Positions 2,128 through 35,995 of a stretch of DNA of 64,000 nt are shown here, piece after piece. Positions within the stretch are counted from its first letter, which is position 1. Every line of letters starts with the position of its first letter. This DNA comes from Rugalucina vietnamica (Eukaryota > Mollusca > Bivalvia > Lucinida > Lucinidae), in the NCBI GenBank assembly GCA_964017185.1, contig OZ024879.1, positions 44,399,883 to 44,463,882 on the forward strand. The letters are read 5' to 3'. The position numbers were made by a program, and so were the translations under genes. The notes under the pieces were generated by a model. That model did not search any database. It was not told where the DNA came from and saw nothing but the letters and a program-made list of their open reading frames with translations.

Positions 2128-4006
2128 ATGATGAGGGCCTTAATAGTTATAATTATGCTGATTCAAGCTGTGGTACAGATAAGCTACGCACAATTTAGTG
2201 ATTGTGTTCCACCTACAGCCTATATGAGAAGTTACTTTGAGTGTGAATCAAGCTGTCATGATTAGTGAGTATTGCGCGTATACCACAAACGATGAGATGC
2301 AAATCCCGCTAACAAAACGACCGATGCTCATTGATTGTCATGGACACCATAATTTAACTGACTGATGCTCATTGATTGTCATGGACACCATAATTTAAAC
2401 AAAAGACATTCTTAGATTATTCCATTATGCCATTCTGATTCGAATTACAAACTTGATTTAAACCGCCTTATTGGCTACCTGGTTAACCAAAATCTTAAGA
2501 ACAATGTTTGATAAAATTACAGTTATAACATACTAGTAATGTCTAAGGTCTTTATATTTTGGCCGTTACGTTAATTCTTACTTAACATGTTACTAAAATG
2601 TTAAAGTAAGCAATGATAGCACAATCATGACAATGGCGAGATCGTAAAGAAATACACTCCAAATCGGAGGTAAGACAAATAATCCGAAATTCTTGCATAG
2701 ATTTCTATGCGCATAGCTGTTGAAGAAGTTTTCGATTGGTCGAAAGCCGTGTTCAAACAGCAAAACCCATGTTCAAATCATGAAATTCAAGTGCCGTTTG
2801 AACATGTAATTTAGCTGACGTCATTGGTCAATGCGACGTGACGTCATGTGTTTTGTAGAAACAAAATGGCCGACGTTGAAGAAGCTCCGCGGTTTTCGGT
2901 GAGTTTTTACGTTGTTAATGTTATTTTCATGAGATTTTAAGTGGATTAGAGTGAAAATGCAAGAATAGCGATCAACCATGATTTGTTTCAGTGTTCAAAC
3001 ATTCGCTGGATCACTCGGAAGGTGTTTGAACACGCGGCCTGCGGCCTTGTTTTCAAACACCTTCCTCGTGATCCATCGAATGTTTGAACACTGAAAACCA
3101 TGGTTGATCCCTATAGTCACAATATGGTACTTAATCAGCGGTTAGTACTATAATATTATGTTAAAGTGGGAATTTGTTGACATCGTCCCGACCCACGCAG
3201 GTTCTAATATCAAGACACAGCAAGCCTGCAATATATTATATAAATATATTGAATAATGGATGTAAACAACATACAAGGATGACAACGTTCAATGAATCAA
3301 TGTACTAGCGTGAAGGCATTTCAACTGACATTTGATGGCTTATACGTATGTCTATTGAATGGTTTGACTTGAACCACTTTTCCTGGGCAGGCTCAGACAT
3401 GAGCGGTTAACCAGTATTTAGAAATTTATTATCGGTTAAGATTCATTTTCTTACCAATGTTTATTTGGTCCCATTTAGATAATACTAGTCTTTGTATCGA
3501 CTACCATGTTGAAAGTTGCAAAATTTCAGTTATTCGTTTTGGTTCCATGTTGCCAAATCTAAAGGGTCACTGACGAGACTTTAATAGACGAAACCGCGGT
3601 ATGGCCCATGCCCTTTCTCATTAATATGTTCGCTGCTCTTAAAGGATCTCAGTTTTAATTTTTATTTAGATTGTAAGTCAGAAGTGTAAAAGGTTTGCCT
3701 TGAGGCACAAGCAGTCCATTTATTTCTTTATGTCCAAACGGGCGGGGCCCCAAAACGTGATTAGCCCACGCTCTTGTAGTACAAGATGTCGGGAGGGGGC
3801 AGAGCGGGGTTGTTGGTTGATTTCGGTTCATTTCTTCACAATCCTTTCTTACTTTATTTAAATGTATATGCTTCGTTTATTTCAGTTGCAGGAAAAACCA
3901 GCACGGGTGTCGTTGTGGAGAAGCCTCAAATGAAAAGTGCCTCACAGATTTTGATAGAAATATCTTTTGTGCTTGTGGGTGTGGTATGGGCTCATCTGGG
4001 AAATAA
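2128..4006 (+). CDS. CRP-A: secreted ten-cysteine peptide precursor, two coding exons
   Basis: Exon 1 codes from 2128 to 2264 and exon 2 from 3886 to 4006 (stop TAA 4004-4006). The intron, 2265-3885, has GTGAGT and TTTCAG ends and splits a Tyr codon after its second base. The product is 85 residues. Residues 1-21 are a hydrophobic signal peptide beginning MMR and ending SYA, giving a likely cleavage before Gln22. The mature part of about 64 residues has ten cysteines at 26, 39, 43, 47, 54, 56, 64, 74, 76 and 78, and ends in an FCACGC motif and a short Gly/Ser tail. The first of two adjacent ATG codons was used because CRP-B has the same ATGATGAGG start. The CXXXC and CXC spacings would suit a disulphide-stabilised peptide such as an invertebrate defensin-like fold, but I recognise no named family and assign no activity. 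The paralogue at 33500 has the same exon phase and exon 2 length, which is the strongest support that this gene is real. Confidence 0.82.
2324..2400 (+). repeat. tandem duplication, 40-bp unit
   Basis: Two head-to-tail copies of a unit beginning GATGCTCATTGATTGTCATG, essentially identical to each other, lie in the CRP-A intron. This is a recent local duplication. Confidence 0.9.
2816..2846. promoter_or_regulatory. two CRE palindromes and an inverted CCAAT box
   Basis: TGACGTCA occurs at 2816-2823 and again at 2839-2846, with ATTGG (inverted CCAAT) at 2823-2827. They sit 20-50 bp upstream of a well-placed ATG at 2866. This arrangement is typical of TATA-less metazoan promoters, but its function here is inferred. 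Confidence 0.4.
2866..2898 (+). CDS. candidate first coding exon (11 codons) with strong donor
   Basis: ATG in a good context (ACAAAATGG) opens 11 codons reading MADVEEAPRFS and runs directly into GTGAGT at 2899. With the CRE/CCAAT cluster just upstream it resembles the promoter-proximal first exon of a gene. It lies inside the CRP-A intron on the same strand, and no following exon was found. It may be a transposed promoter fragment, a transposon-borne gene start, or chance. Confidence 0.3.
2975..3108. repeat. palindrome in CRP-A intron
   Basis: The left arm (ATGATTTGTTTCAGTGTTCA, then AACATTCGCTGGATCAC and GAAGGTGTTTGAA) returns in reverse complement on the right, around a GCGGCCTGCGGCC centre. 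Span is about 134 bp. It is foldback DNA. Related GTTTGAACATG words occur at 2750-2815, so the element may extend leftward. Confidence 0.85.
3370..3740 (-). repeat. REP-2 and REP-1 composite
   Basis: The segments 3370-3440 and 3690-3740 are reverse-complement matches to REP-2 at 25190-25360. They include the complements of GGAAAAGTGGTTTCAAGTC, GGTTAACCGCTCA, GTGCCTCAAGGCAAA and GGGGCCCCGCCC. Between them, 3465-3665 matches REP-1 (TGTTGCCAAATCTAAAGG, TCTCATTAATATGTTCGCTG), which is also at 53050-53270. The repeats are unclassified. Confidence 0.7.
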
Positions 4007-4033
4007 TCCTACATGTTTCCCTTACAACACCAA

Positions 4034-4039
4034 ATTAAA
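4034..4039 (+). terminator. ATTAAA polyadenylation signal candidate for CRP-A
   Basis: The common variant ATTAAA starts 28 nt after the CRP-A stop codon. No canonical AATAAA lies closer, so this is the best 3'-end candidate. Confidence 0.5.
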
Positions 4040-4437
4040 TGGAATATGACTACAGATTTCTCTGAACTTTAGCTGAAATAGGAGTCTTGGTCCGAACATC
4101 TACTATAAACTACCTAAAATTGCCGGTCTGATCATCCGCGGTCATACTAGATATTTATGTTTTCAGCAGCTGGTGCTTGTTATCCATAAGATTTCAGAGT
4201 ACAGTGCAATCACTTTCACCGCGCCGCTTGAACTCACGTGGCTTTATCATGCGCATATTGCCAACTGGAACAATATTCTTCAATACACATTGGGCATTAC
4301 CGAAGTGTTACCTGGAAAATTACCTTTGCAAAACGAATTCGGATATTTCCCATACATCGCTATCAGCGATTGCCTTTATTTGACACCTGTGTGACATCGG
4401 GCAATATTCTGATATTTCACAGGTAACTTACAAGGTG
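4040..4437. other. no gene recognised
   Basis: Two overlapping open frames (4173-4426) follow a TTTTCAG-like acceptor. Unlike CRP exon 2 they are not cysteine-patterned, they show no domain, and they have no copies in the window. Confidence 0.45.
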
Positions 4438-4520
4438 GAAAAACATTATAAATAACAATTTTGTGGAGTGAGAATTTTTTCTGATTGCGCCATTTCCTGA
4501 TCAATACCTACTTTTACCTT
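4438..4520 (+). repeat. short RET-P 3'-tail fragment
   Basis: TGTGGAGTGAGAATTTTTTC, then TGATTGCGCCATTTCCTGAT and CCTACTTTTACC, is a diverged copy of the RET-P tail seen intact at 52700-52775. Confidence 0.6.
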
Positions 4521-4631
4521 TTGATAATATGGGCAGGCCCAGTGGATGTGGTTTGTGCATGATAATTATAAAGTTTCCGACCACTTCATGCGACTAACCG
4601 GCAGGACGATTATCAAGAGAAATAGAGGGTT

Positions 4632-4735
4632 TTACACGAGTGGTCATTTCATATGAAATTTATTAAACGAGCCTTCGGCGAGTTTAACAAATTTCATATG
4701 AAATGAGCACGAGTGTACGATTCGCTTTATCATAG
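4632..4735 (+). mobile_element. FB3 hairpin element copy 1
   Basis: The arms TTACACGAGTGGTCATTTCA and CATATGAAATTTATTAAACG fold on their complement across GAGCCTTCGGCGAG. A second copy in the same orientation lies at 28927-29030, including the flanking TTCG(C/T)TTTATCATA. Short non-coding foldback family. Confidence 0.85.
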
Positions 4736-4739
4736 GATT

Positions 4740-4937
4740 TTTAAAACAGGATTTAATGCCGAAGCCCCCTTTTCAGACTTACACCTTTCTGTTGCAAATG
4801 GATTTGTTTCTTCTAAAACGTATGCGGTTAATCGTGATTCGGAGTTACTACAATGGCACCGTTTCAAAGTATATCGTAATATTCGAATGACAAGAAATAA
4901 ATGGAAAAAAATATTAGCAACCAATATCGAAAGATAA
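4740..4937 (+). pseudogene. RET-P reverse-transcriptase-protein fragment
   Basis: The frame 4713-4937 contains AEAPFSDLHLSVANGFVSSK, the segment that precedes the FLDGDVPRR motif in the RET-P ORF (compare EAPF and the NGFVSSK-like stretch near 55745-55790). The match ends soon afterwards and the remainder is unrelated, so this is a 5'- and 3'-truncated relic. It is a retroelement fragment without activity, and the family assignment rests on motif recognition. Confidence 0.6.
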
Positions 4938-5194
4938 CTTACATGTAACCTTTCATTTTCGGGAAAATTGGCGAACCGCCTTTGATAACCATGTGTAAAA
5001 GAAAGCTTTTTCCATTGTGTTTTGTATAAAAGCCGGGAAACATTGACGTGAACAAGCTGGTTACGTCATTATCCACGATCATTGAGCGATGGAATGAAAC
5101 GTGTTTGAATCAAGAGTCAAGTGGCCAAGTTCATTTTAAAAATTTCGTGTTTTATGTTTTTGTAAAATTCTTTTGAAAATTATTTTGATCCGGA

Positions 5195-5340
5195 TCATCT
5201 ACAGATCCGCTATGGTTACAACAAGTGAATACGTATCTGTTTTTCCCACCTCGGTTTTTGGAGTGGGAATCTTTTTCTGATTGCGCCTTTCCTGATCTTT
5301 GCCTACTTGTACCTTTTTGTAATGGAAAAGCGTTATTATA
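5195..5340 (+). repeat. RET-P 3' tail
   Basis: CCCACCTCGGTTTTTGGAGT through TGATTGCGCC to TTTGCCTACTTGTACC matches the ends of the copies at 52775 and 55390. A 5'-truncated tail is the expected form for a target-primed retroelement. Confidence 0.8.
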
Positions 5341-5384
5341 AAACATTATCAAGTAATTGCCAGTAAGATGATTATGTAGTAATT

Positions 5385-5532
5385 ACCCGCTGAGCGACAG
5401 GTGGGTATGATATTTTCCTGACCTGTCCAGGCAAAAGCATGCACCGAGAGCCCGAAGGGCTCGAGGTGCATGCTTTTGGCTGGACAGGTCAGGAAAATAT
5501 CATGCCCACCTGTCGCGAAGCGGGTAATTAAC
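5385..5532. repeat. 143-bp near-perfect palindrome
   Basis: The arms read TAATTACCCGCTGAGCGACA, then GGTGGGTATGATATTTTCCT and GACCTGTCCAG. They are mirrored on the right after a GAGCCCGAAGGGCTC centre. Only a few mismatches are present, so the element is young or under pressure to stay foldable. TAATTAC at both ends may be TIR or TSD. Single copy in the window. Confidence 0.9.
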
Positions 5533-6904
5533 TTACCTTATGACCCGACTTGGTGAAATTTTAGTTTCCGCCCGACCTACACAACGACAAATCAAACACT
5601 GGTTACTTTTTGATCTGTTCGGAGCTTATACGAAATATTACATAAACGAATGACCGAAACATTTTGTCCATTAAAATTTCTTTTTTCGAGACGTAACTGT
5701 TAAACGAACACTGCACGTGCAAAACGAGGAATCTTGTCAACGATCTGTCTTCGCTATTGTCAAAAATAGATCAGAATGGAGTATCTTCCCTTGTACGTTT
5801 TAAACGTTTTGAAACATATTTTTATTTTGTAATATTCAGCATTTCTTTCTCAAATTTTCTAATCAACAACAGGAATTATCTTTTATCAAAACAGATAACA
5901 GCTGGGCGAGCAAATAAAAATTATCTCTTCTGTTATATGTAAACCGTAGCACCATTTCGTTTTGAGTTTCAAATAAGTATATATAGCGTGTGTAGGATTG
6001 TAATGCAGGGTTTGAAACCTACGGACCTAACTTTCTAAAATCCCCATAGTAAGTTAGGGGACCATTGTAAAAATGCCCAGCTGTATTTAAGGGATACAGT
6101 TGGTCGTTTATGATATACGCAATTCAAAAATGTGTGAAATTGGTTTCTCATTCATTGTTCTTGCACTTTTACAACTAACAATAACACACTAACATTATAA
6201 TACGAGAATCAGAAACCAACTTCCAACTCGAGAAGACACTCATCTCAATGCAGCTGCCCAGTCCGATCATGGCACTGCAATCGATATTCATGCGCACTGG
6301 GCAAATCCTTAATTCAATACTACTCAAACAAGGATTTCAAAGAAGTTACATTGGGATGGAAGTCCGAGTCGAAATGGCATGGCCACGCTTTAGTGGAGCT
6401 TTCATCAGCTGTCGGAAAGTAGGAATGTCACTTTCACCACTTGTCTGGGGGTAAGGACACTTTCCTTACCTCCAAACAGGTATGAAAGTACTTTCCTTAC
6501 CTCCAGACAGGTGTGAAAGTATTTTCTATACTACCGTAGACACTGCACGTGCAGTAAGTTATGAAAAATAACTCCCCATGATTAACATTGCAGTCATAAG
6601 GTAACCTTAAATAAGTAATGGACTTGACCTTAAAAGTACACTCATTACTGCGTGAACTCGCACAATATCTGACTGAACTTGTTTAACAAGAAGTCGTGTC
6701 CGGAAAAAGCCTCTCAACCGAATAATCCATTGAATATGTAACCTGGGGCTAGCTAGAAATCACAGAAGGGTAACTAATTTATCATAGTGTCCTTTTGAAA
6801 GCACGCATATAGAAAAAAAAAAACTGCCCTGTACATGTATCTTGTGAGTACCCCAATGTGTACAAACATGATATTTGCAATGAGCACGTTCGCTATAGTA
6901 CAAA
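5533..6904. other. no gene recognised
   Basis: About 1.4 kb with only short random frames. A small repeated motif (CTTTCCTTACCTCCA) occurs twice at 6457-6505. No copies elsewhere in the window were noticed. Confidence 0.5.
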
Positions 6905-7315
6905 TTTGAGCACAAAAACGCCAAGGGGCGAATATCGAAAAACGAAAACCGAACTAACTTCTTTTTTTGAATATCGAAAACCGAATATCAAACTAACTTA
7001 TTTTTTTGAATATCGAAAAAGGAATATCAAACTGACTTATTTTTTGAATCTCGAAAAACGAAAAACGAATATCGAATTAACTTATTTTTTGAATATCGAA
7101 AAACGAAAAACGAATATCGAACTAACTTCTTTTTTTGAATATCGAAAAACGAAAAACGAATATCGAACTAACTTCTTTTTTTGAATATCGAAAAACGAAA
7201 AACGAATATCGAACTAACTTATTTTTTGAATATTGAAAAACGAATACCGAACTAACTTCTTTTTTTTTTTGAATATCGAAAAGCGAAAAACGAAAATCGA
7301 ACTAACTTCTCAGTG
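6905..7315 (+). repeat. minisatellite of GAATATCGAAAAACGAAAAACG units
   Basis: At least eight imperfect units of about 45-60 bp combine AATATCGAAAAACG words with CTAACTTCTTTTTTTG. The 108-residue frame over it is simply the unit translated repeatedly and is not a gene. Confidence 0.95.
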
Positions 7316-7324
7316 CCGAATGAA

Positions 7325-7560
7325 ATAAAATATAAAAGCTTGATCCTTTGGAAGCAGTAAAAAACGTTCAAAGGGAGGTAGTATGGGCCATATTGCTCAA
7401 TTTCGGGTACTGAACCCTCATCAGTGACCCTGTATCTCCCGGCGACCATAGCCAGATAAATATACTGCAATGTCAAAAATATACTGCAATTTCAAAACAT
7501 TACACAATAGACTACAAGGTAAGTCTAAATCAAAGACACATGCCTAAACGGAGTCAAATG
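7325..7560 (-). repeat. REP-1 copy
   Basis: Read on the minus strand it contains GGTCACTGATGAGGGTTCAG, CCCGAAATTGAGCAATATGG and CCAAAGGATCAAGC, as in REP-1 at 9262-9465 and 30110-30295. Confidence 0.75.
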
Positions 7561-7908
7561 ACTAGAACTGTGTTTAGAAGAACACTGCTGCACATTCACT
7601 TCAAACGATAATCACGGCCGTCACAGTCCAATAATGACAACACCTTTCTGTAATACAGGTGTCATAGTAATGATTGTGTTTATAACGACCGTCTTTCACA
7701 CTCTCGGGCAGATTTACGGAGTACCAATTTATTACTCAATCACACTTCAAAAAAGTCGAAAAGGCTAGCTTATTTTCGAATAAACGAAAATTGTGGTCCG
7801 ACCGAAACCATCTTCGGTCAAAAAAGTGGTCCGGCCATGGCCGGACGCCGCCGCCGACCTTGCATGAGATGGAAATAAAATATGGGAGTACTCAATAGAA
7901 GTAATTGG
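7561..7908. other. no gene recognised
   Basis: Unique-looking AT-rich DNA with a short GC-rich patch (7830-7860, GGCCATGGCCGGACGCCGCC). No supported feature. Confidence 0.4.
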
Positions 7909-8152
7909 CGGCCCCGGTGCCCGAGCGGTTCAGAGGGCTGTTTCTGAATCACTCGATCATCTCGCCGCTGTGTCTGGTCTGGGTTCGAGCCCCGCTCTCG
8001 CCACATGTGAGACAAGCCAAGTTCTGCTTGCGGGTGTGTACGGAGGTTTTTCTCAGGGTTCTCCTGTTTTCGCCCACCGACTGATTTTTCCGTCTCATAT
8101 GAGCAGAAATAATCTTGAAAGGGACGTAAAACTGAATCCAAAAAAAATATAA
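7909..8152 (+). mobile_element. SINE-A, full length (tRNA-derived SINE)
   Basis: The head resembles a tRNA with an intact pol III layout: an A-box-like GTGCCCGAGCGGTTCAGAGG and a B box GGTTCGAGCCC, followed by CCACATGTGAGACAAGCCAA. The body has GTTCTGCTTGCGGGTGTG, GTCTCATATGAGC and AATAATCTTGAAAGGGACG, and ends AACTGAATCC plus an A-rich tail. Six more copies or fragments are in this window. Transcription would be from the internal promoter, and mobility would depend on a LINE. Confidence 0.88.
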
Positions 8153-8450
8153 TTAATTGCTATTAACATATTTATTATGTTTTAAGAATTTAAGATTTTA
8201 AATTTTAAAAATTCTAACAATTTATATTACCAAGCAACAGTGTTCACTAAATATATGTTCAAAGTTTAAATTCTGTTTGATGAAATCCCACATCTGGAAA
8301 ATCTCTAGTGCTATATCTGACAGATTTAATGGCCATATCATTTACACATGCTCATTCCTAATGTCTATAAGGTGCTAGAGCTAACTGTCTATCCCCTCTA
8401 ATGAGCTGCTCAAAATTGAGCTACCTAGAGACCCCTGTGTGGCCAAGTGT
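8153..8450. other. AT-rich spacer
   Basis: No gene or repeat recognised. The segmental duplication starts at its right edge. Confidence 0.4.
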
Positions 8451-8724
8451 GTAAGATGTTTTACCTTAAATAAGGAATGGACTAAAACTTAAAAGTGTAT
8501 TTACCTTAAAAGTACGTAAACCTTAAAAGAACATTTACGCTAGGTCACTGGTCCCTTAACATGCCTTTGGAAGTCATAATGACCTAGGTCAATATGTATG
8601 CTGATGGAAATTTACTTCATCAGGATACAATGTCCGTGAAATGCATTCACCCTTGAACACAATTTAATATAGTAAAACTAGGGCCGAATTAGCCAAGGTC
8701 CGAATTGTCCATAATTCTATAGAG

Positions 8725-8891
8725 GAATACATATTGTTCTTATTTTTTATCCAAAACATAGATTGTTCTAACGTGTACCCCCAATATTTTGAGCAAAAAT
8801 AAGAAAAATAGCAAGATTTTATTTTCTGAAATTTTCAGTTTTTACGACTGAAAATCATCTCTGTATATTGCATGGGCAAGATTTCGTAATG
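8725..8891 (+). mobile_element. FB2 MITE relic
   Basis: Carries TTCTTATTTTTTATCCAAAA, CATAGATTGTTCTAACGTGT, GAGCAAAAATAAGAAAAATA and the right end TGCATGGGCAAGATTTCGTA + ATG. The inner hairpin has been deleted. The same relic is in copy 2 of the duplication. Confidence 0.75.
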
Positions 8892-9087
8892 AATGTTTTA
8901 CTATTGATTCCGTCTCTGTCACTAATAAGCGTAAATTTTGCATCTTTGAAACGTAAATTGCTTGTAAACAGCTGTATTTGTATATGCTTTCATTTCTCAA
9001 ATTCTATAGATGTAACAGAAGGTTTTACGTCTAACAAATGCGCACTTGAAGATACCTATGTCTATGTACATGTATCAACTAAAGAAT

Positions 9088-9255
9088 AATTACTATTATT
9101 TTTATTCAAAGTGGACAGTAAATAATGAACCCTTTGTTCATCTTATAACTGATATAGTTAATAGTGTTTGGAATCAGAAGATATCGACTATTATTTTTAT
9201 TCAAAGTGGACAGTAAATGATGAACCCTTTGTTCATCTTATAACTGATACAGTAT
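9088..9255 (+). repeat. tandem pair, about 103-bp unit
   Basis: CTATTATTTTTATTCAAAGT + GGACAGTAAATAATGAACCC recurs one unit later with a single visible change in that stretch. The pair is also present at 50070-50230, so it predates the segmental duplication. Confidence 0.88.
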
Positions 9256-9261
9256 TTTGAT

Positions 9262-9465
9262 TATTTGGCCCCTTTGGGAATTTTAGTCTTTGATTTAGAC
9301 TACACAGATGTAAATTCTTGAAATTGCAGCAAAATGTCTGGCTTTTGCTGCCAGTTTTATAAAGGGTCACTGATGAAGGTTCATTACCCGAAATTGTACA
9401 ATATGACCCATCTTCTAGCTTTGTATTTTTACTGCTTCCAAAGGATCTAACAATTATTTTTATTT
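9262..9465 (+). repeat. REP-1 copy
   Basis: TAGTCTTTGATTTAGACTAC, then GGGTCACTGATGAAGGTTCA, TTACCCGAAATTGTACAATA and CCAAAGGATCTAACAATTAT. Shared with 3465, 7325(-), 30110, 50268 and 53050. Confidence 0.75.
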
Positions 9466-9883
9466 AATATTGTTTGGAATCAGAAGATATCCATTTAAAA
9501 TTTCATGAATTTTCAACTGCAATTAGCACATTTTATGTAGCATGCAAAATTAATGGTTTGTAGTCGAAGTCAACAATAATTACTTGAAGTCACTTTCAGA
9601 CGGATCTCTCTTCCTTGTTATAAACCAGTGCTTTCTTTTTCTTGGAGCTAGTTGGATTCAAATCCACAACCTTACCCAACCTTATAATCCGGAATTTAAC
9701 ACCACTATGCGCCCCTCAAATCAAACATGAACCATATAACCATCAATACATTCATATTTCCCATTCTTTGAATTCCAGAAGAGCCGTTGATTTGATAAAA
9801 CAAGTAGCCCAAAGGCAACGATCGCTCACCTGAGAGTCAATAAGTACAGTCACTGGACAGTTTTTTTTTTTTTTTTTTTTTTT

Positions 9884-11250
9884 AAGATCTGATCAAAATT
9901 CAAGAGATGCTGGAGTGGCCACAACACTAATTTTTTTTTCAAACATTCAAGGGCAGCTAACTCCATAGTCCAGTGTCGAATATGGCTCAAATTTGAACTC
10001 ATCCAAAATGTTATAGTTATCCTTGTTACTTCCGAGAATGAAGAAGATCCGATCAAAATTGAAGGCGCTAGAGTGGCCACAATACAAAATATTGATTTTT
10101 TCAAACACTAAAGGGAAGCTAACTCCGCAGTCAGAGGTCGGATCTAGTCGAAATTCGAACTCATCCGAGATGTTATGGATGTCCTTGGTATTTCCAAGAA
10201 TAAAGAAGTATTTAGTGGCCACAACACTAAATATTGATTTTTCACACAGTCAAGGGCAGATAACTTTGCAATCAAGGGTTGAATCTGGCTGAAATTCGAA
10301 CTCATCCGAGATATTATGGCTATCCTTGTTACTTCCAAGTATGAAGAAGATCTGATCAAAAGTGAAGGCGCTAGAGTGGCCACAACACAAAATAATGATT
10401 TTTCAAACACTCAAGGGCAGCTAACTCCACAGTCAGAGGTCGGATCTGGCTGAAATTCGAACCCATCCGAGATATTATAGTTTCCTTATTACCTGGATTA
10501 CAAGAATGAAGAAGATCAGAAGAAGATCAGAATAAAAATGAAGGCGCTAGAGTGGCCACAACACTAAATATTGATTTTTCAAACACAAAGTCAGAGGTCG
10601 GATCTGGTCGAAATTCGAACTCATCCAAGATGTTGTGGATGTCCTTGTTACTTTTAAGAATAAAGAAGATCCGAATAGAAATGAAGGTAGCGCTAGAGTG
10701 GCCACAACACTAAATATTGATTTTTCACACAGTCAAGGACAGATAACTCTGCAGTCAATGGTTGAATCTGGCTGAAATTTGAACTCATTCGAGATGTTAT
10801 AGCTATCCTTGTTACTTTAAAGTATGAAGAAGATCCGATCAAAATTGAAGGCGCTAGAGTGGCCACAACACAAAATAATGATTTTTCAAACCCTCAAGGG
10901 CAGCTTACTCCGCAGCAGAGATCGGATCTGGCTGAAATTTGAACCCATCTGAGATATTATAGTTGTACTTGTTACCTGCAAGAATGAAGAAGATCCAATG
11001 AAAAATAAAGGCGCTAGAGTGGCCACAACATTTTTCCCATTATAAGTCTTTGGGGATTTTTCTAGACGCTCAAGGGCAGCTAACTCCGCAATCTGAGGTC
11101 GAATCTGGCCGAAATTCGAACTCATCCGAGATGTTATGGTTGTCCTTGTTACCTGCAAGAATGAAGAAGATCCAATCAAAAATGAAGTTGCTAGAGTGGC
11201 CACAACATTTTCCCCATTATAACTCAATGGGAGCTATCTGTTACCATGGA
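9884..11250 (+). repeat. 160-bp satellite array, about nine units
   Basis: Each unit has GATC(C/T)GATCAAAATTGAAGG, CGCTAGAGTGGCCACAACAC, TAAATATTGATTTTTCAAAC, AAGGGCAGCTAACTCC, GAAATTCGAACTCATCCGAG and TTCCAAGAATGAAGAAGATC. Unit starts are near 9884, 10041, 10205, 10347, 10520, 10665, 10829, 10989 and 11167. Open frames on both strands through it are by-products of units close to a multiple of three. It is preceded by a poly-T tract (9859-9883). The copy at 50979-51858 has about six units. Confidence 0.93.
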
Positions 11251-14240: not shown

Positions 14241-14274
<34 letters not shown>

Positions 14275-20687: not shown

Positions 20688-22850
<2,163 letters not shown>

Positions 22851-25360: not shown

Positions 25361-25576
25361 GCTCGTATAAGCGGTTGTGGCTTTGTTGGATGGTTATATA
25401 TCAAGAGCCCCGTAAATGGAGACAACGTCCCGACCTGATCTTAGCCGTTGACTGGAACGTTAAGCATCAGTTTCAAACGATGGCTGTACAAATTTTGTCA
25501 CCAAATCATCATAAAAAAAAAATAAAATGCGGTTGCATCACGATCATCGCAGCGTCTCCGGACTTTTTAGTGTAGA

Positions 25577-25990: not shown

Positions 25991-26017
25991 AAGATTTTGG
26001 AAAACACGGCGTATAAA

Positions 26018-26302
26018 CATCAGGAAAACATGTCCGACAAATGTTTACCCCTTTATACCCCACTAGTATATAGTACAGTATAACTGGGGTATGGAGGGGT
26101 ATACCTATTTTTCTTATTTTTGCTCGAAAACAAAGATTGTAGGTACTCGTTACAACCGCCTCGCAGAAGCGGTTCAAACGTGTACCCATAATCTATGTTT
26201 TTAGCAAAAATAAGAAAAAATATCAAAAGTTTTCTAATGAAAATTTTCAATTTTTACAACTCAAGAGAAATCTGTATATAACATGGGCATGTTTACGTAA
26301 TG
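26018..26302 (+). mobile_element. FB2 MITE
   Basis: Left end CATCAGGAAAACATGTCCG, right end CATGTTTACGTAATG. The hairpin arms TAGGTACTCGTTACAACCGC and GCGGTTCAAACGTGTACCCA flank a CTCGCAGAA loop. The stem has several mismatches, so this copy is older than those at 31 and 33 kb. Confidence 0.85.
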
Positions 26303-27196: not shown

Positions 27197-27335
27197 ATTC
27201 CTATTCAAAACCTTCAACAAATTGTGCGGACGCTATTTAAACAATTCGTTGATAAGTTTGTTTTACATAAATCTTCCATTTTCAAAATCCGAAGCTGGCG
27301 ATTCATAGCCCTCAACAAGAGTTATTCCCTTTCAA
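27197..27335 (+). repeat. direct repeat, partner at 23583-23735
   Basis: GTGCGGACGCTATTTAAACA, TCCATTTTCAAAATCCGAAG and CTGGCGATTCATAGCCCTC. Same order as the partner without its poly-A. Confidence 0.85.
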
Positions 27336-27451
27336 AAAGGCGCGACGTAAGAGCATCGACTGTCGTTTCTCTGGCGTCGCAAAGCAACGTCGCACGTAAC
27401 ACCCTGACCTTAAGATTGACGTTACAGTTCCAGCTATACACAAAAATCAAA

Positions 27452-27660
27452 TTACTCGGTGGCTGAGCGGTTAAGAGTGTTGTTTCTTTATCCCTCGATA
27501 AACTCACTGATGTATCCTGTGTGGGATCGAGCCAAGTTCTGCTTGCGGGTGTGTCAGGTGGTTTTTGACGGGGTTCTCCCGTTTTTGTACCACTTACTTA
27601 TTGACCCGTCTCATATGAGCTGAAATAATCTTGAATGGTACGTTAAACTGAATTTAAAGA
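27452..27660 (+). mobile_element. SINE-A copy
   Basis: The A box TGGCTGAGCGGTTAAGAGTG is well preserved. The B box is damaged (GGGATCGAGCCAAG), with the CCACATGTGAGACAA segment deleted. The body is intact: GTTCTGCTTGCGGGTGTGTC, GTCTCATATGAGCTGAAATA and ATCTTGAATGGTACGT. Confidence 0.85.
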
Positions 27661-27757
27661 AATACATGTAACTTTTTCTAAAGGCCAAACTACTGTTACA
27701 AATACACCCACATCTATTTAATGTTATACAATGTTGTGTGCATTCAGTAAACAAACG

Positions 27758-27993
27758 TGAGCCTGTGCGTGAGAAAACCAACAATTTGGGTTCCGACCAG
27801 GTCCGACACAAACTGGCCTGTACAGTCACAGAAGATGGCTAGAGACTGGAAATTTTGGATTTAGAAAGAAGAGGAATTGTACTAACCGTGTAGCGAAAAC
27901 AAAGGCGCTGATCAGCTTCGCGGTTACCGCGAAGCTGATCTGCGTCTTTGTTTTCGCATATGCAAATTGTTGGTTTTCTCATGCACAGGCTCA
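27758..27993 (+). mobile_element. FB1 foldback MITE, full length
   Basis: TIRs TGAGCCTGTGCGTGAGAAAA and TTTTCTCATGCACAGGCTCA enclose the internal palindrome GCGAAAACAAAGGCGCTGAT ... with GCGGTTACCGC at its dyad. ACG/CGT outside the TIRs extends the symmetry. Confidence 0.9.
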
Positions 27994-28039
27994 CGTTACT
28001 GTGTATACTATACAAAGATATACAGAGGTATCTCGCAAT

Positions 28040-28215
28040 CTAATTGGCAAATGGTTATGCGCGTTTGCGAGATGATCGCACGTGATTGCGCGACGTTTGC
28101 GAGTGACACGCGAGTGGCTCGCGAAGCAGTTGCGAGAGCATTGCGAGTAAAGATAATCCCCTACGCGCAACATCGCGCAACGCGCAAATGCGCGATCGCC
28201 AAAAGCATCGCGTCA
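28040..28215. repeat. degenerate TGCGAG/CGCGAT array
   Basis: Irregular TTGCGAG words in the left half and CGCAAC/GCGCGATCGC in the right half make an approximately inverted layout. No exact unit. Frames on both strands are open only because of the composition. Confidence 0.65.
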
Positions 28216-28914
28216 CCTGTACTGTACGTACACTGTACGTAGTCATAATGTCTGAAAAGATATAGCGGATACGAGGTGTGTGCAATATTATATCATATTA
28301 TACAATTAAAGCCCTTCCGTGAGGGAAACATGGCTGTTTGTACGCCTGAGGCCAGTAATTGTACCCGAGAACATGCAATGTCAACAATTGTATTCTTATA
28401 GACCTATTGACTTTTTGAAACCGCGCAAGAAGACGAAAAAACAGTGTACCGTGAGCTTTGTCGACAGCTTGCATTTTAGAATTGCGGTGGGAAGTCGAGG
28501 ATCGGTCAAAAATTATGTTTCTGTATTTATTTCAGAGTATCTTGTCATTTGAAAATAATTAAAAAAAAAGAAAATAAAACAGTGGTTACACCCTTGGAGT
28601 GTTTCAAGGCGAATTATTCGAATCAATTATTTCAAACATGAAATCGGCATCGATATGAAAAAAGATATAAGCGCATTTAAGCAACAGCCTATCAAGTCAT
28701 ACAACAAAGTTATTATACATATGACAGAACTTTTTGACTCATCCACGTAAACTACTAGAAAATTATTTTAAACTTCTTTCGCACTATTTCATTTATCATT
28801 CAAGACTTCTCGCCCAGGCACACCTGCGACGGAGACATACATTATTCTTATACTGCATTCACAATTGTTGTTGGATGTTGGACAAAACTGGTAATGTTTT
28901 AACAATATATATAT
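28216..28914. other. no gene recognised
   Basis: AT-rich with small frames (28319-28552, 28734-28916) lacking any recognisable motif. Confidence 0.4.
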
Positions 28915-28926
28915 AGAGAGAGAGGA

Positions 28927-29035
28927 TCTTACACGAGTGGTCATTTCATATGAAATTTATTAAACGAGCCTTCGGCGAGTTTAATAAAATTCATATGAAA
29001 TGACCACGAGTGTAAGATTCGTTTTATCATATGAC
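28927..29035 (+). mobile_element. FB3 hairpin element copy 2
   Basis: TTACACGAGTGGTCATTTCA ... GAGCCTTCGGCGAG ... TGAAATGACCACGAGTGTAA. Better matched than the copy at 4632. Confidence 0.88.
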
Positions 29036-29697
29036 TTTTAAAATAGGATTTTATCGCCTTCGAAGTGGACATATTTTCAATGAAAATTTACATTGTTGTT
29101 ACGGACGTCGTCAATGACGTTACGTATTCCCGCAAAAGTGTTAATACACGTGTACTCATATGATTTTTATGACATGACGTTTTCCACTGGAAAACAGCGA
29201 CGTCATATGATAAATATATATATCGACAAAAGTTTAGCATTAATGCTCCTATAGCTAAATGTCCATAGATATTGTATTTCGAGAGGACCTATGTGGTTTC
29301 GTCGTATATAGAGAAGGAAATGTGGATACCTTAGTCCTAAATCATATTTCAATATCTCAACTTCACATCCCATATTAAGATGCATCAGCCTGGGCAAAAA
29401 GTTCAGTTTTTTTCGATGTTTAAAAAGTTGAGGTCGATGCGTGTTTTGCGTCGTCGTTTTTACAATGTTTTTCCTTTCTGCGCAATCGCACAAAGGGTAA
29501 AACATGTAGCCTGTGCGTTTGCTTGAGGTCGATTTTGGGAAGTTAAAGAATAGAACATAATAGAATAATTTTATTTTCTAATCACTGAAGGTCCAGTTAA
29601 ATGAAATTAGAATTCCCTTATTCCGTGAATATTTTTGGCAAGACTTTACAGATCGTCCCATGATACTTCCTTATTCCGTTACTCTTGACTTTTTAGA
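29036..29697. other. no gene recognised
   Basis: AT-rich spacer. The minus frame 29203-29505 has no recognisable domain. Confidence 0.4.
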
Positions 29698-29938
29698 TAT
29701 GAGCCGCCTCGTGGGAAAACCAACAATGTGGTTTCCGAACAGGTCCGACACAAACCGAGCTGTACAGTCACAGAAAAGAGCTAGAAGCTTGAAATTTCAG
29801 GTTTAGGAAGAAGAGGAAGTGTACTATCCGTGTAGCGAAAACAAAGGCGCTGATCAGCTTCGCGGTTACCGCGAAGCTGATCTGCGTCTTTGTTTTCGCA
29901 TATGCAGATTGTTGGTTTTCCCATGAGGCGGCTCATAT
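29698..29938 (+). mobile_element. FB1 foldback MITE, full length, TSD ATAT
   Basis: GAGCCGCCTCGTGGGAAAAC and its inverse GTTTTCCCATGAGGCGGCTC bound the element. ATAT lies immediately outside both ends, a 4-bp duplication as for the 49364 copy (CAAT). Inner palindrome as in the other copies. Confidence 0.9.
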
Positions 29939-30024
29939 ATACAACACCGTTGATGTTGTAGCATAAGCACAACTCAAATGACCACATTTCTGGCCTGGGC
30001 GGAAAGACACTTTGAATAGTAAAA

Positions 30025-30625
30025 GGTATCCACATTTTCATCTTAATATAAGGAGGAATCCACATTTTTAGATAATGTATAGAAATTTATGGGAAACCCT
30101 CAAAATGTGGATCTTTAGGAATGTGTCTTTGATTTAGACTTCTCGTGTAAATTTTCGAAATTACAATAAAATAGTCTGGCTTTCGTTGCCGGTTTAAACA
30201 GGGCTACTGATGAGGGTTCATTACCCGAAATTGCGCAATATCGTCCATACTATCTCCCTTTAAATGTTTCCAAAGGATCAAACCTTTATAAAAAATTTTC
30301 TTGACTATATAGAGAGAGGTAACCACATTTTTAGATACAAGGCATTTCATGGGAAACGCTAAAATGTTGATTCCTGTCTATATAGAGTGGGTTCCACATT
30401 TTCCAGTTTTAAGGCATTTTATGGGAAACCCTCAACATGTGGATTCCTGACTATATAGGTAAGGATCCACTTTTTGAAGTATACGGCGTTCATGAGAAAC
30501 CTTAAAAATGTGGATTCATGTCTATATAGAGAGGAATCCACATTTTCCAGCTTTAAGGCATTCTATGTGAAACCCTGAATATGTGGATTCCTGTCTATAT
30601 ATGGAGGGATTTACATTTTTATACA
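30025..30625 (+). repeat. palindromic minisatellite (about 90-bp unit) interrupted by REP-1
   Basis: Units have the form TATATAGAGAGGAATCCACA TTTT... AAGGCATTTTATGGGAAACC ...ATGTGGATTCCTGTC. The ATCCACAT and ATGTGGAT words make each unit self-complementary. One unit at 30040-30120, then REP-1 (30110-30295), then four more units. Confidence 0.85.
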
Positions 30626-30968
30626 TACAATTACAACCTTTTAACATTCACGGAATAAGGACAATCCTTGATCAGTTGTACTTGATCGAAATGACCAGAC
30701 CATCTTAAACAAAGCAACCAGACAAGGTTCATGTTTTACCCGAGAAAAGCCGCGGGAAACAGTTCTACAATGAGGCTGCTAAAGATCGCTTCACGGAAAC
30801 ATGCTGACTAAAAAAAGGCCGACAGGACGTTAATTTTGATTGCTTTTCCGACAGTTTTGTCTCAGCCTTGTCTTCAGATTTTAAAAATTGTTGATTAGAT
30901 TTATAGACAATTATTTTAGTAAGAAGCAGTGTTTTTTCATGCTGAATTCTGCGACCTTGCGCCACTAT
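30626..30968. other. no gene recognised
   Basis: Ordinary sequence; 30921-30968 is one of a pair of repeats that flank the FB2 copy. Confidence 0.4.
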
Positions 30969-31247
30969 CACCAGGATAACATTTCCGTGCAATATTTACC
31001 CCCTTATCACCCACTTTTATATAGCAAAACTGGGGTATGCAGGGGTATACCTATTTTTCTTATTTTTGCTCTAAAACATAGATTGTGGCTACTCGTTAGA
31101 ACCGCCTCGCCGAGGCGGTTCCAACGTGTACCCACAATCTATGTTTTGAGCGAAAATAAGAAAAATATAAAAAAAAATCGATCAAAAATTTTCAATTTTT
31201 ACAACTAAGGAAAAGTCCGTATATTATATGGGCGTGTTTTCGTAATG
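30969..31247 (+). mobile_element. FB2 MITE with strong hairpin, flanked by a duplicated 50-bp host segment
   Basis: Left end CCAGGATAACATTTCCGTGC + AATAT, right end CGTGTTTTCGTAATG. The hairpin arm CATAGATTGTGGCTACTCGT + TAGAACCGCCTCG has a complementary partner. The host sequence on the left (AAGAAGCAGTGTTTTTTCAT, 30921-30968) recurs on the right (GAAGCAGTGTTTCTTTTTAT, 31255-31303), both ending in a TGCGCCAC phrase. Confidence 0.85.
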
Positions 31248-31303
31248 TAGAGTGAGAAGCAGTGTTTCTTTTTATACTGTATTCTGCCACCATGCGCCAC
31301 GAC

Positions 31304-31673
31304 TGAATAAAATTCACCCCATGACGAGGAAGAGCATGTTGAAACGAGCTGTTACAAACAAAAAATTCAGACCTGACATTAAGCACTGACATTTTACGAA
31401 ATAACAAAATGTAATTAAAAAATCATTGCCAAATATCAGTGTTTAACATTTTGAAAACAAGTTTGTCTTTGAAGATGTCTACTACCTACATCTGAAATTA
31501 AATGATATGATAATGATATATATACCACATTATTGTTCTATCTAGCGCCTAAAGATTTTTGTAATTTTAGATTTAAACTACTAAAATTGCGTACTTTTAT
31601 GGACACGATTTTAAAGAGTGCCGACAATTACTCTTTTAAACAAGTAATCCTATCTCTGGTCATTCAGTATCTA
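31304..31673. other. no gene recognised
   Basis: AT-rich sequence without supported features. Confidence 0.4.
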
Positions 31674-31895
31674 CATTACGAAAACTTGCCCATGCAATAA
31701 ACCAGAGATTTTTTAGCCTAAAAAATTCAAAATTTTCAGCTAAAATTTTTGATGTTTTTCTTATTTTTGCTCAGAACATAGATTGTGGCCTCGGCGGTTC
31801 TAACGAGTACCCACAATCTATGTTTTAGAGCAAAAATAAGAAAAATAGGTATACCCCTGCATACACCAGTTTTACTATATAAAAATGAGGTTTAA
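31674..31895 (-). mobile_element. FB2 MITE, minus orientation
   Basis: Starts CATTACGAAAACTTGCCCAT + GCAATA, carries the hairpin arms around CATAGATTGTGGCC / ACGAGTACCCACAATCTATG, and runs to TAGGTATACCCCTGCATACA. The CATCAGG end is not preserved. Confidence 0.8.
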
Positions 31896-31924
31896 GGGGA
31901 ATAGTGTTGTGTACGAGTACTTTT

Positions 31925-32024
31925 GCAGACTGTAACTGAATGTGTTATTTGTTTTCCAGGCATTCTAGTCATTGTATTGTGCTTTTTGCAGACTGTAACT
32001 GACTTTGTTATTTGTTTTCCATTT

Positions 32025-32082
<58 letters not shown>

Positions 32083-32330
32083 AAACCACAACTAAATTTG
32101 TTATTTGTTTTCCAGGCATTCTAGTCATTGTGTTGGGGTTTTTTGCAGACCACAACTGAATGTGTTATTTGTTTTCAAGGCATTCTAGTCATTGTGTTTG
32201 GGTTTTTTTTTGCATACAACAACTGAATTTGTTATTTGCTTTCCAGGCATTCTAGTCATTGTGTTGGGGGGTTTCGCATACAACAACTGAATTTGTTATT
32301 TGTTTTCCAGGCATTCTAGTGTAGTATTGT
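31925..32330 (+). repeat. 63-bp minisatellite upstream of CRP-B carrying a splice-acceptor-like motif
   Basis: Six units of the form (C)AACTGAATTTGTTATTTG TTTTCCAGGCATTCTAGTCA TTGTGTTGGGG...TGCA, starting near 31928, 31991, 32086, 32149, 32215 and 32279. Unit 2 is broken by a run of about 48 T (32030-32080). Most units contain TTTGTTTTCCAGG (variants CTTTCCAGG and TTTTCAAGG), the same string that forms the acceptor in front of the CRP-B start codon at 33488-33497. Confidence 0.9.
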
Positions 32331-33207
32331 TACGTTTGAAAACTATGATATCGATTCTCTTGTGTTTGTAAAATAACTTTGCAGGGCTTTCGCGAATCGT
32401 CACGTCATGAACATATGCACTCTGACATCAGGGTGCATTTTTAAAAGTGATGCATCCATACAAAGTTTGAGAACAGTCCGTAGCTAAACCGATTTTTGTT
32501 TCAGCTGCACAGTAAGAGAGAGAATGTAAATGCAAATTTTGTTCATATTTGATATCTATTTGTGTTGTGCAATTTTGCAGACCACAACTGAATATGTTGT
32601 CATCAGGAAAACATGTTCGTGCTATGAATACCCCCTTAAACCCCCCTTTTATGTAGTAAAACTGGGGTATGCAGGGGTATACCTATTTTTCTTATTTTTG
32701 CTCCAAAACATAGATTGTGGGTACTCGTTAGAACCGCCTCGGCGAGGCGGTTCTAACGAGTACCACAATCTATGTTTTGAGCAAAAATAAGAAAATATCA
32801 TAAAATTTCTGCTGAAAATTTTCAATTTTAAAGCTAAAAAATCTGTGTTAATTGCATGGACAAGTTTTCGTAATACTGTAACGGAATGAGTTATTTGTTT
32901 TCCAGGCATTCCAGTCCAGTATTGTAACGTTTGAAAACTATTATTCTCTTTATTGTGTTTGTAAAATAACTTTGCAGGGCTTTCGCGAATCGTCACGTCA
33001 AAAATATATATACTCTGACATCAGGGTGCATTTTTAAAAGTGACGCATCCATACAAGTTTTGAGAACAGTCCGTATCTAAACCGATCTTGGTTTCAGCTG
33101 CACAGTAAGAGAGAGAATGTAAATATTAAAGTCAAAATGCAAATTTCGTTCATATTTAATATCTATTTGTGTTGTGCAATTTTGCAGACCACAACTGAAT
33201 ATGTTAT

Positions 33208-33486
33208 CATCAGGAAAACATGTCCGTGCTATGAATACCCCCTTAAACCCCACTTTTATACAGTAAAACTGGGGTATGCAGGGGTATACCTATTTTTCTT
33301 ATTTTTGCTCCAAAACATAGATTGTGGGTACTCGTTAGAACCGCCTCGGCTAGGCGGTTCTAACGAGTACCACAATCTATGTTTTGTAGCAAAAAGAAGA
33401 AAAATACCAAACATTTTCTACTGAAAAATTTCATTTTTTACTACTTTAAAAATCACTGTATATTGCATGGGCATGTTTTCGTAATG
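33208..33486 (+). mobile_element. FB2 MITE just upstream of the CRP-B start
   Basis: CATCAGGAAAACATGTCCGT + GCTATG at the left and GGGCATGTTTTCGTAATG at the right. The hairpin TTGTGGGTACTCGTTAGAAC + CGCCTCGGC / GGCGGTTCTAACGAGTACCA is almost perfect. It ends 13 bp before the CRP-B ATG, so it lies within or next to the acceptor region of the gene. Confidence 0.9.
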
Positions 33487-33487
33487 T

Positions 33488-33497
33488 TGTTTTCCAG
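33488..33497 (+). promoter_or_regulatory. splice acceptor before the CRP-B start codon
   Basis: TGTTTTCCAG|GA precedes ATG at 33500. CRP-A has TTTTAG|AGCGTCAACAC before its ATG. Both genes therefore probably have an untranslated first exon upstream. The donor exon was not identified. Confidence 0.5.
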
Positions 33498-33499
33498 GA

Positions 33500-35995
33500 A
33501 TGATGAGGTTCACATTTACAATCGTATTCATCCTGGCTATCTTGCATATGAATTGTGCCGGCAAACCAAAGTGTGTCCGAGCTCCGAAGAAATACGATGA
33601 CATGGCTACCTGTGGTGATTATTGTGCAGGCTAGTAAGTACACTTCAAAGTATTATTCCGCACATCAGATATAGGAGGTAGAAACTTTCTACTTTATAGA
33701 AATCTAATATATTTTACCATTCATTAACATTCGCTGGGTAGCGAGGTCAGTGTTGAAAACCGAGGTTTCAACAATCCCCGAGGGACTATTCGAATATTGA
33801 TAAATGACAAGATTATTTTCGAACGTTATAATCGCATAAATTCTGCAAAACCTTTTTTCGCCTATAAAAAGGAAACTCTTTATTTTACTTCTACAGTGCG
33901 TTCCTTTATCGACATAGACCGGGATGGGACTCATTTCCGGAATGGACTACCGGAATGGATATTTCTTTGTGTGATGAAATACTTTTCAGCCTTTTGGCCT
34001 AGAATATGCACAGACTGTGATTAGTCCGGAAATCATGTGGTTTAAGACCAGCTAAATTTTGTTCTGTACGATGGGGAAGCCTTGCTAAGATGTGCATATA
34101 TGCTTATTGGTCACCGTCACACTATTTACTCATTTCTATTTCCATTTGTATTTTTTTAGTTAGAACAATCCCGGACCCCAGCCCTGAGGTACCCTAACCA
34201 CCATAGGAAGTCAATTTTGCTATGCAAAGATGAAACTATCCTTATGTAAACAACTTGTATGACTGCAGAAATAATTTTAAGCATATAAAATACATTTACA
34301 GCATACAAAGCTACAGCATAATGTCCATTCCTGTAAATATGTCCATTCCGAGACTTGTCATGAGTTGTCCTCCTTTGTTGATGCTAACGGAATGTCCATA
34401 CTCAGAGACAAATTAAAAGAAGAAAAGCCTTTCTGGACTGAGATATTTAGCCGAGTCTAAATGATTTGCTAGAGAAGGCTATAAATCTTTATTGAAATAG
34501 ATTGTTCGGTGATCGTAAAACTCGTTTAACGTCGCAGAGTATTTCAGTAATTCCAGAGACTGTGTGGTTAAGCATATTCACTCATATTTTCGTATAATTT
34601 TTCCTACAGCTTGTACAACATATGTAATTCATGTTGAAAAAAAGAAGAAATTAATGTGTACTTTACTTTTGAACCAAAACAAAACATAATTTTGACGGGC
34701 TCTTTGCCAGAGCAGCGGACTGATCTTGCAGCCCCACTGCTTGTAGTTTTAGCCTCAGAGCATTACACTACAAGCCAAGCTCTGCTTGCGGGTGTCCAAG
34801 TGTTTTTTTTTTTTTTTTTCGGGGTTCTGTCGTTTTCGTCCCACCTACGGATTGGCCCGTTCGTCTCATAACGATTGATATTCTGCGCATGTAGTCTCTT
34901 GTCCGTGTAAACCTTTCTGCCTTTGAACCGTTTCAAAGAAAGCTTAAATGATTCTGCATATGCGCAGTGCCCGTATGCGATTTTATGTAAAAGGTAGCAA
35001 TATGTGTGTGTGTGTGGAGATTTTATCATTAACGGTGCAAAAATTTATTTGTGCCTGAGCTAGCTTTCGCCTTTCGGCTTCATCAGACTGAGCATACTGA
35101 TTACAGCAAGTTTAGAGAAAAATAGAGGGTGAGACGGCGAAAATGTTCGTCCTCGATTTTTGACATAAACAATTACAGATGAAAAATGACATTGTGCTCA
35201 ATTGCTCAATGGCAGAACACATGGGTAACATAAATTTGATGCAATTTGATTAACATCCCGAAAATAAAACTCCGATAAAAGAGGGGGGGGGGTCGGAAAT
35301 GAAAAAGAAAAAGAAAATAGAAGTAAACAAACACGACCGTTCACTTCAAAGGTTGCAAAACTACTGAAGGCGGGCTATGCATAGACAGGTTATATTACCA
35401 AAATCTCAGTCATACTATATATAGAGAGAGAAATAAAGATGTACTTAATTGGCAAAGATAGGTTTCGAACCCGCAGACTTCGGCTTCGGCGCCTAGCTAT
35501 ACAGGGCCATCCCATCTACCGACTGTGTTACTTTGCTCCTTAACGTTACGAAACCTTGCCCATGCAATATACAATGATTTTTAATGTTGTTAAAAATGAA
35601 AAAAATTCAGTAGAACAGTTTTGATTATTTTCTTATTTTTGCTCAAAACATAGATTGTGGGTACACGTCGAGGCGGTTCTAACGAGTACCCACAATCTAT
35701 GTTTAGGAGCAAAAATAAGAAAAAAATAGGTATACCCCTGCATACCCCAGTTTTGCTATATAAAAGTGGGGTTCAAGGGGTTAAACATTACACGGACATG
35801 TTTTCCTGATATATACTGTAAACATAACGAAGCACCAAAACGCTGCATTAACATGTATTTATTTTACGTTTCAGCTGCGCCACTGATGAATGCGGGAAAG
35901 AATGTAGTGAAGCAGATGTTACATCATATGGAATTTGTTTAATATTGTTCTCTGGGACAGTCTACTGTAATTGTTTCTGTGAATTTGTATATTAA
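33500..35995 (+). CDS. CRP-B: secreted ten-cysteine peptide precursor, two coding exons
   Basis: Exon 1 codes 33500-33633 (donor GTAAGT) and exon 2 codes 35875-35995 (acceptor TTTCAG, stop TAA 35993-35995). The intron, 33634-35874, splits a Tyr codon after its second base. The product is 84 residues: a hydrophobic signal peptide (about residues 1-20 or 21) starting MMR, then a mature chain with cysteines at 25, 38, 42, 46, 51, 55, 66, 76, 78 and 80 and a C-terminal YCNCFC motif. Cys19 lies inside the signal segment. Compared with CRP-A the spacings C-X12-C-X3-C-X3-C, C-X9-C-X-C-X-C and the 39-residue length after the split Tyr are identical, while most non-cysteine residues differ. A secreted role such as defence or another extracellular function is inference, and no named family is recognised. 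Transcription may depend on the repeat-rich upstream block. A polyadenylation signal lies 73 nt after the stop. Confidence 0.85.
34765..34880 (+). mobile_element. SINE-A fragment
   Basis: CACTACAAGCCAAGCTCTGC + TTGCGGGTGTCC, then a poly-T expansion and CGGGGTTCTGTCGTTTTCGT, and ends at GTCTCATAACG. The head and tail are missing. Confidence 0.8.
35457..35532 (-). mobile_element. tRNA-like (pseudo-tRNA or SINE head)
   Basis: On the minus strand AGTCGGTAGATGGGATGG resembles an A box and GCGGGTTCGAAACCTATC a B box with a complete T-loop. The intervening arm is long, Ser/Leu-like, and the acceptor stem is not convincing. Possibly a SINE head of a second family. Confidence 0.45.
35545..35811 (-). 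mobile_element. FB2 MITE in the CRP-B intron, minus orientation
   Basis: Starts CGTTACGAAACCTTGCCCAT + GCAATATAC and ends CACGGACATGTTTTCCTGAT. The hairpin arms CATAGATTGTGGGTACACGT and ACGAGTACCCACAATCTATG are intact, with part of the loop deleted. Confidence 0.88.

Follow-up and report, generated by a model that had tools for sequence, protein, structure and literature searches.

CRP-A and CRP-B, two split genes in a 64,000-nucleotide stretch of Rugalucina vietnamica DNA (the window), belong to a family of secreted cysteine-rich peptides that is real and so far unplaced among known families. The best reading, to which we assign a probability of roughly one half, is that they are members of a clustered, recently amplified family of small secreted peptides and that this family consists of new defence effectors with a CS-alpha-beta-like core, the fold and the function being predicted. 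The coding DNA of the mature peptide diverges faster than the introns, both among the nine CRP-A copies (A1-A9) and between the CRP-B copy B1 and the paralogue C.

Structure of CRP-A and CRP-B

Splice models and translation confirmed that CRP-A and CRP-B are real split genes with GT..AG introns, located where an earlier note on this DNA had placed them. CRP-A (copy A5, + strand) has a first coding exon at 2128..2264, encoding the signal peptide and Cys1-Cys3, a phase-2 intron of 1621 nt at 2265..3885 (GTGAGT..TTTCAG) and a second coding exon at 3886..4006, encoding Cys4-Cys10 and the stop codon. CRP-B (copy B1, + strand) has a first coding exon at 33500..33633, again encoding the signal peptide and Cys1-Cys3, a phase-2 intron of 2241 nt at 33634..35874 (GTAAGT..TTTCAG) and a second coding exon at 35875..35995, encoding Cys4-Cys10 and the stop codon. 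A candidate poly(A) signal, AATAAA, lies 75 nt past the CRP-B stop (36070..36075, + strand); in gene C the candidate signal lies 53 nt past the stop.

Both genes share the start ATGATGAGG and break a Tyr codon after TA in phase 2, as the earlier note had reported, and the phase-2 TA/Y break with GT..AG was found in all 13 genes of the family described below. The note had also claimed that exactly 39 codons and a stop follow the junction. The result showed that this holds for CRP-A and CRP-B (1 nt, 39 codons and the stop) but not as a family constant: the second exon has 40 codons in 7/9 A copies, 39 in A4, A5, B1, B2 and C, and 35 in D. Direct reading of the DNA ahead of the ATG identified an acceptor-like TTTTAG (2111-2116) and the short leader AGCGTCAACAC in CRP-A (2111..2127, + strand), and an acceptor-like TTTTCCAG followed by GA in CRP-B (33490..33499, + strand). 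An AG with a T-rich lead occurs upstream of the ATG in 13/13 genes, the distance being 2 nt in B and C and 11 nt in A and D, suggesting that a non-coding 5′ exon is likely.

The CRP-A protein has 85 amino acids and ten Cys with the spacing 12,3,3,6,1,7,9,1,1, and the CRP-B protein has 84 amino acids and ten mature Cys with the spacing 12,3,3,4,3,10,9,1,1, plus one Cys in the signal region. The protein plan of the family consists of a signal peptide of about 20 amino acids and a mature part of 60-65 amino acids with ten Cys (nine in D), and no pro-region was seen; each translation has a hydrophobic start, and the signal boundary (about residue 21) was placed by eye. Alignment of CRP-A with CRP-B gave E=4e-7 in a single comparison, and the score of the mature alignment exceeded 2000/2000 full shuffles. 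When the Cys were held fixed, 47/2000 mature shuffles reached the observed score, indicating that similarity beyond the Cys is weak and that a comparison of these two genes on their own reveals little more than the shared frame.

A cluster of paralogues

A, B and D served as queries for searches of the genome, which totals 1.09 Gb in 47 contigs; together with a local tblastn and a reading of the D locus, these showed that the family comprises at least 13 paralogues, all on the + strand and within 0.40 Mb of the chromosome that carries the window (C11, window at 44399883-44463882); genome-wide counts are lower bounds. On this chromosome the first coding exons of the nine CRP-A genes lie at 44324450, 44343823, 44363222, 44382619, 44402010 (A5, in the window), 44470086, 44490198, 44546574 and 44565461, those of the two CRP-B genes lie at 44433382 (B1, in the window) and 44507690, and genes C and D lie at 44227902 and 44622604. 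Six weaker genome matches on other contigs (C16, C8 twice, C5, C7 and C1; E 0.066 to 0.98) were left out. Within 264 kb of contiguous sequence, the tblastn matches listed with more than 22 bits comprised the seven genes of that region and two weak ones at 22-24 bits. For the interval 44.464-44.664 Mb, the reading covered the loci of the genes and a single stretch of 4 kb.

The intron of gene C is 22.4 kb long and matches the B1 intron at both ends, and about 20 kb of additional DNA relative to CRP-B lies in its middle (chromosome 44229311-44249572). Gene D starts with ATGAGGAAG and encodes nine Cys, the last one (Cys10) being lost. Its protein is 40% identical to that of C (E=6e-18) and matches A9 with E=4e-8. 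The closeness of D to C by identity, together with its A-like middle spacing (x1, x7), indicates that D links the types.

The five 5′-most CRP-A copies are spaced by 19.37 to 19.40 kb, and in the three pairs of array units compared there were 13, 22 and 4 mismatches (0.02-0.11%). Units as similar as these might be thought falsely duplicated haplotypes of the assembly, or the genes mere chance frames. Assembly duplication is possible for the most alike pair, units 3 and 4, which differ by 4 mismatches in 19.4 kb. However, the units are mutually distinct and stand in tandem on one contig, and frames and junctions are intact in 13/13 genes, C and D among them despite their divergence. An assembly artefact is therefore very improbable as the explanation of the cluster, and chance frames in particular are very unlikely; the exact number of copies is provisional.

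Several other elements were found nearby. A repeated element occurs in the window at 32601-32874, 33208-33490 and 35543-35810, the third copy being inverted; it flanks the start of CRP-B and sits in the CRP-B intron, one copy ends directly before the presumed CRP-B acceptor, and relatives lie near genes C and D. Upstream of gene C, a short-period tandem array (about 64 bases, judged from offsets; chromosome 44226243-44227594) matches window positions 32075-32320 upstream of CRP-B. Further along the window, separate zinc knuckle, aspartyl protease and reverse transcriptase frames at 42633-44542 (+) look like pieces of a gypsy-type retroelement, a reverse transcriptase fragment (RVT_1) at 45577-45939 (-) looks LINE-like, and a SECIS_1 match at 52131-52198 (+; 39 bits, gathering 35) would place the 3′ end of a selenoprotein gene there.

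Divergence of mature segments and introns

Among A1-A9, 18/198 columns of the mature part were variable (15 nonsynonymous, 3 synonymous), compared with 2/63 in the signal part, 19/1630 in the intron, 7/501 upstream and 5/300 downstream. Variation in the mature part was about 8 times that in the intron (Fisher p=5.5e-9), and none of the 20 variable coding columns fell in a Cys codon. Between B1 and C there were 34/189 differences in the mature part, 3/63 in the signal part and 95/1936 in the intron, a mature excess of about 4 times (p=1.2e-9); the intron figure is the sum of the first four aligned pieces, a fifth, overlapping piece being left out and part of the intron being unaligned. The contrast between signal and mature part was significant in B1-C (p=0.008) but not in A1-A9 (p=0.17). 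All these p-values are descriptive only, because the copies are non-independent and some changes arrive as one patch.

At the level of single pairs, the mature parts of A5 and A6 are separated by 9 nonsynonymous changes and no synonymous one, and their introns by 6 differences in 1621 bases; several A pairs have mature parts that are identical or 1-2 bases apart. B1 and B2 showed no clear mature excess (4 mature changes; intron 27/2211). The earlier proposal of a fast-evolving secreted family that keeps its frame was supported by the 13 genes and by the mature excess over introns in two subfamilies, but it is qualified by B1-B2 and by the synonymous changes. These exceed the intron rate, with 2/35 in A5-A9 (p=0.029) and 5/37 in B1-C (p=0.036). 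For the A columns the uncorrected dN/dS between paralogues was about 1.1, and for B1-C it was about 1.4, so that no plain dN>dS signal accompanies the mature excess, because synonymous sites are also raised over introns. Positive selection as the entire explanation was rejected for the same reason.

That synonymous sites exceed introns implies that homogenisation of the introns may account for part of the contrast. The exon excess could thus be partly a by-product, either because introns and flanks were homogenised by gene conversion or unequal crossing over, or because diverged pieces of exon were imported on short conversion tracts; this is compatible with the other readings of the family. 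Besides the synonymous sites, the near identity of the array units fits such a process, as does a patch of changes at codons 23, 30, 33, 34 and 36 common to A6, A8 and A9. However, homogenisation alone would also wipe out exon differences unless something maintained them, the signal region within that exon barely changes, and the pattern occurs again in B1 versus C. Taken together, we consider the by-product explanation somewhat unlikely. Compared with the homogenised DNA that surrounds them, the mature segments may be of greater age or under better protection, and selection is the likeliest reason why the diverged mature segments persist.

Modes of divergence have also been described in other families. 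In conotoxin genes, too, the introns and signal of a superfamily are conserved and the mature peptide diversifies, but three exons correspond roughly to signal, pro-region and mature peptide, whereas here slow and fast parts share one exon (PMC3862624). In myticin-C the mature peptide is likewise the most variable coding part, and two tandem genes have been proposed; however, its introns vary more than its exons, the opposite of the CRP family (PMC3164099). Mussel CRP-I is another clustered mollusc family with a conserved signal peptide and a diversified mature peptide, but it has a propeptide and the six-Cys knottin array C(X3-6)C(X1-7)CC(X3-4)C(x3-5)C (PMC10138031); the adjacent CC is absent from 13/13 of the present proteins, which are thus not members of CRP-I. 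For the molluscan inhibitor Family I84, Ka/Ks is given as 0.16-0.57 between duplicates, and values of 1.3-1.4 are cited within two genes (PMC9198434).

Cysteine frame and possible role

The ten mature Cys of both genes follow the pattern C-x12-C-x3-C-x3-C ... C-x9-C-x-C-x-C that had been noted for them. In the CS-alpha-beta reference array, CxxxC is paired with CxC and a third bond joins an N-terminal Cys to a middle Cys (PMC5116183). The spacing of this core is compatible in 13/13 genes, but the same six-Cys core was found in 20% of random 10-Cys placements; CxxxCxxxC followed by CxCxC was found in 0.3% of 20,000 such placements. Judged by its spacing, the frame appears to fit the CS-alpha-beta layout, with mytilin and xibalbin 4 nearest to it.

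Mytilin has the eight-Cys array C-X3-C-X3-C-X4-C-X11-C-X-C-X-C-X2-C with bonds C1-C5, C2-C6, C3-C7 and C4-C8 (PMC7168163). It shares with the present family CxxxCxxxC, x4 to the next Cys (here in B and C) and CxCxC near the end, and in mytilin the bonds between these segments are known. The present peptides differ in having ten Cys, with an extra Cys1, two more middle Cys and none after CxCxC, and their genes have two coding exons and a likely 5′ exon versus four mytilin exons. They do not belong to the mytilins: there are ten Cys (nine in D), no Cys follows CxCxC, C-X3-C-X3-C-X4-C occurs only in B1, B2 and C, and, in place of a cationic peptide with an anionic C-terminal extension, the mature charge is negative and the protein stops 4 to 8 residues past the last Cys. 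Xibalbin 4, a remipede venom peptide with the array xCx12Cx3Cx5Cx5Cx5CxCxC described as 'putative CS-alpha-beta' (PMC5577568), likewise starts with C-x12-C-x3-C and ends with CxCxC, but it has eight Cys and another middle, comes from another phylum, and its fold is only predicted. Macins combine a CS-alpha-beta core with additional bonds, as is proposed for the present family, have 8-12 Cys and occur in molluscs; they differ in that no sequence match was found with the six members scanned against Pfam-A and that CxCxC is not described for them in the available part of the source (PMC5116183). The defensin-like analogy that the earlier note had drawn from CXXXC and CXC spacings is somewhat stronger than claimed as regards mytilin and xibalbin 4, and weakened by the acidity of the peptides and by C-x12-C-x3-C, which also closes Kunitz domains (PMC2410133) and so says little when taken alone.

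On a model proposed by analogy, the peptide would be secreted and would form a CS-alpha-beta-like core with a three-rung ladder, in which a helix carrying Cys2-x3-Cys3-x3-Cys4 would be bonded to a strand carrying Cys8-x-Cys9-x-Cys10 through the pairs Cys2-Cys8, Cys3-Cys9 and Cys4-Cys10. Cys1 and Cys5-Cys7 would supply the remaining bonds, and the exposed loops would vary under diversifying or balancing selection. Gene D, which is without Cys10, would leave the ladder Cys4 unpaired, and this counts against a strict need for the third rung.

Database searches returned no significant match to a known family. A and B gave only non-significant matches against Pfam, which holds a macin model, and an hmmscan search of Pfam-A with A5, A9, A8, B1, C and D reported nothing but Phlebovirus_NSM (0.17) and SLR1-BP (0.4). 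No significant match was found in the PDB either with a profile search (best TIM10, E=0.21, then Saratin, 4.7) or with a single-sequence search (best for A an odorant-binding protein, 0.37), and no CS-alpha-beta family rose above noise in the Pfam and PDB sequence searches. CRP-A alone had no match in the protein collection; the family and exon-1 alignments had a single one, the 45-amino-acid protein P0002 from an ENA contig, whose letters are the first coding exon of copy A6 and which is not evidence of cross-species conservation. A search of the genome for big defensins found none, and it is uninformative because 14 control genomes also gave none. This ten-Cys array was not found described in the available parts of the open-licence literature searched. 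The earlier note knew of no named family with exactly this ten-Cys frame, and the searches of Pfam, the PDB and the protein collection brought up none either.

The mature net charge is -1 to -8 in 13/13 genes, and the pI is 4.19-6.06 in the seven genes for which it was computed. Such acidic mature peptides differ from typical cationic antimicrobial peptides and are probably not of the classic membrane-lytic type. A membrane-active antimicrobial peptide resembling mytilins or macins would agree with the mytilin-like Cys layout and with the macins, which add bonds to the same core in molluscs. However, the negative charge in all 13 contrasts with +7 to +10 in the Mytilus and Trichomya mytilins described, the anionic C-terminal extension is lacking, and none of the six members scanned had a Pfam match of this kind, making such a peptide markedly improbable. 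A low charge need not by itself disqualify an antimicrobial peptide, since some Perna mytilins are nearly neutral (PMC7168163).

Size and acidity agree with those of small protease inhibitors directed against pathogen proteases. Molluscan I84 inhibitors are acidic (pI 4.98-6.11), have masses of 7.1-9.3 kDa and form tandem clusters in a razor clam; they differ in having 12 Cys in a quite different spacing and three coding exons (PMC9198434). A PDB match to the trypsin inhibitor ATTI-2 (E=0.62) was not significant, and the frame is non-Kunitz, C-x12-C-x3-C coming first here and last in Kunitz domains. An inhibitor family is accordingly quite unlikely. As for formal membership, the I84 array CX5-8CX4-5CX7-9CX4CTCX6-23CX5-7CX3-6CX5-8CX4CXC is absent from the present proteins, which have 10 Cys and a 12,3,3 start. 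Likewise, the Kunitz framework C-X8-C-X15/18-C-X5/7-C-X12-C-X3-C (PMC2410133) is absent, as the Cys that precede C-x12-C-x3-C in it are missing.

CS-alpha-beta folds are used for recognition in plants. The family might similarly serve recognition or signalling, as gamete, mate or self/non-self peptides, acidic disulfide-rich ligands that diversify because partners must differ. The acidity, the lack of a visible pro-region, the conserved signal region and the diversity of the mature part against homogenised flanks are in line with this, and the SLR1-BP match is to a pollen-coat family, though with an E-value too poor to be usable. However, nothing ties the cluster to reproduction, and we regard this use as unlikely.

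The most likely role of the peptides would be in extracellular defence, as effectors that bind a microbial or parasite target which itself changes, whether a receptor, a protease or a surface. The family probably represents an undescribed acidic offshoot of defensin-type peptides with a use in defence or recognition. A more specific version is put forward tentatively and is fairly unlikely in its full form, namely that it is a new acidic ten-Cys CS-alpha-beta-like branch with the three-rung ladder, in which selection keeps the mature segments apart amid homogenisation of the array. If this were true, the cluster would hold a set of ligands for recognition, or of effectors against parasites, and not of lytic antimicrobials. 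If the family is confirmed, its acidic members, in a layout that is generally taken to be antimicrobial, would indicate binding or inhibition over membrane killing. An undescribed family would then join the invertebrate secreted cysteine-rich repertoire, and its conserved introns and signal, fast mature part and many near-identical copies would provide a natural test case for selection versus gene conversion in keeping peptide repertoires diverse.
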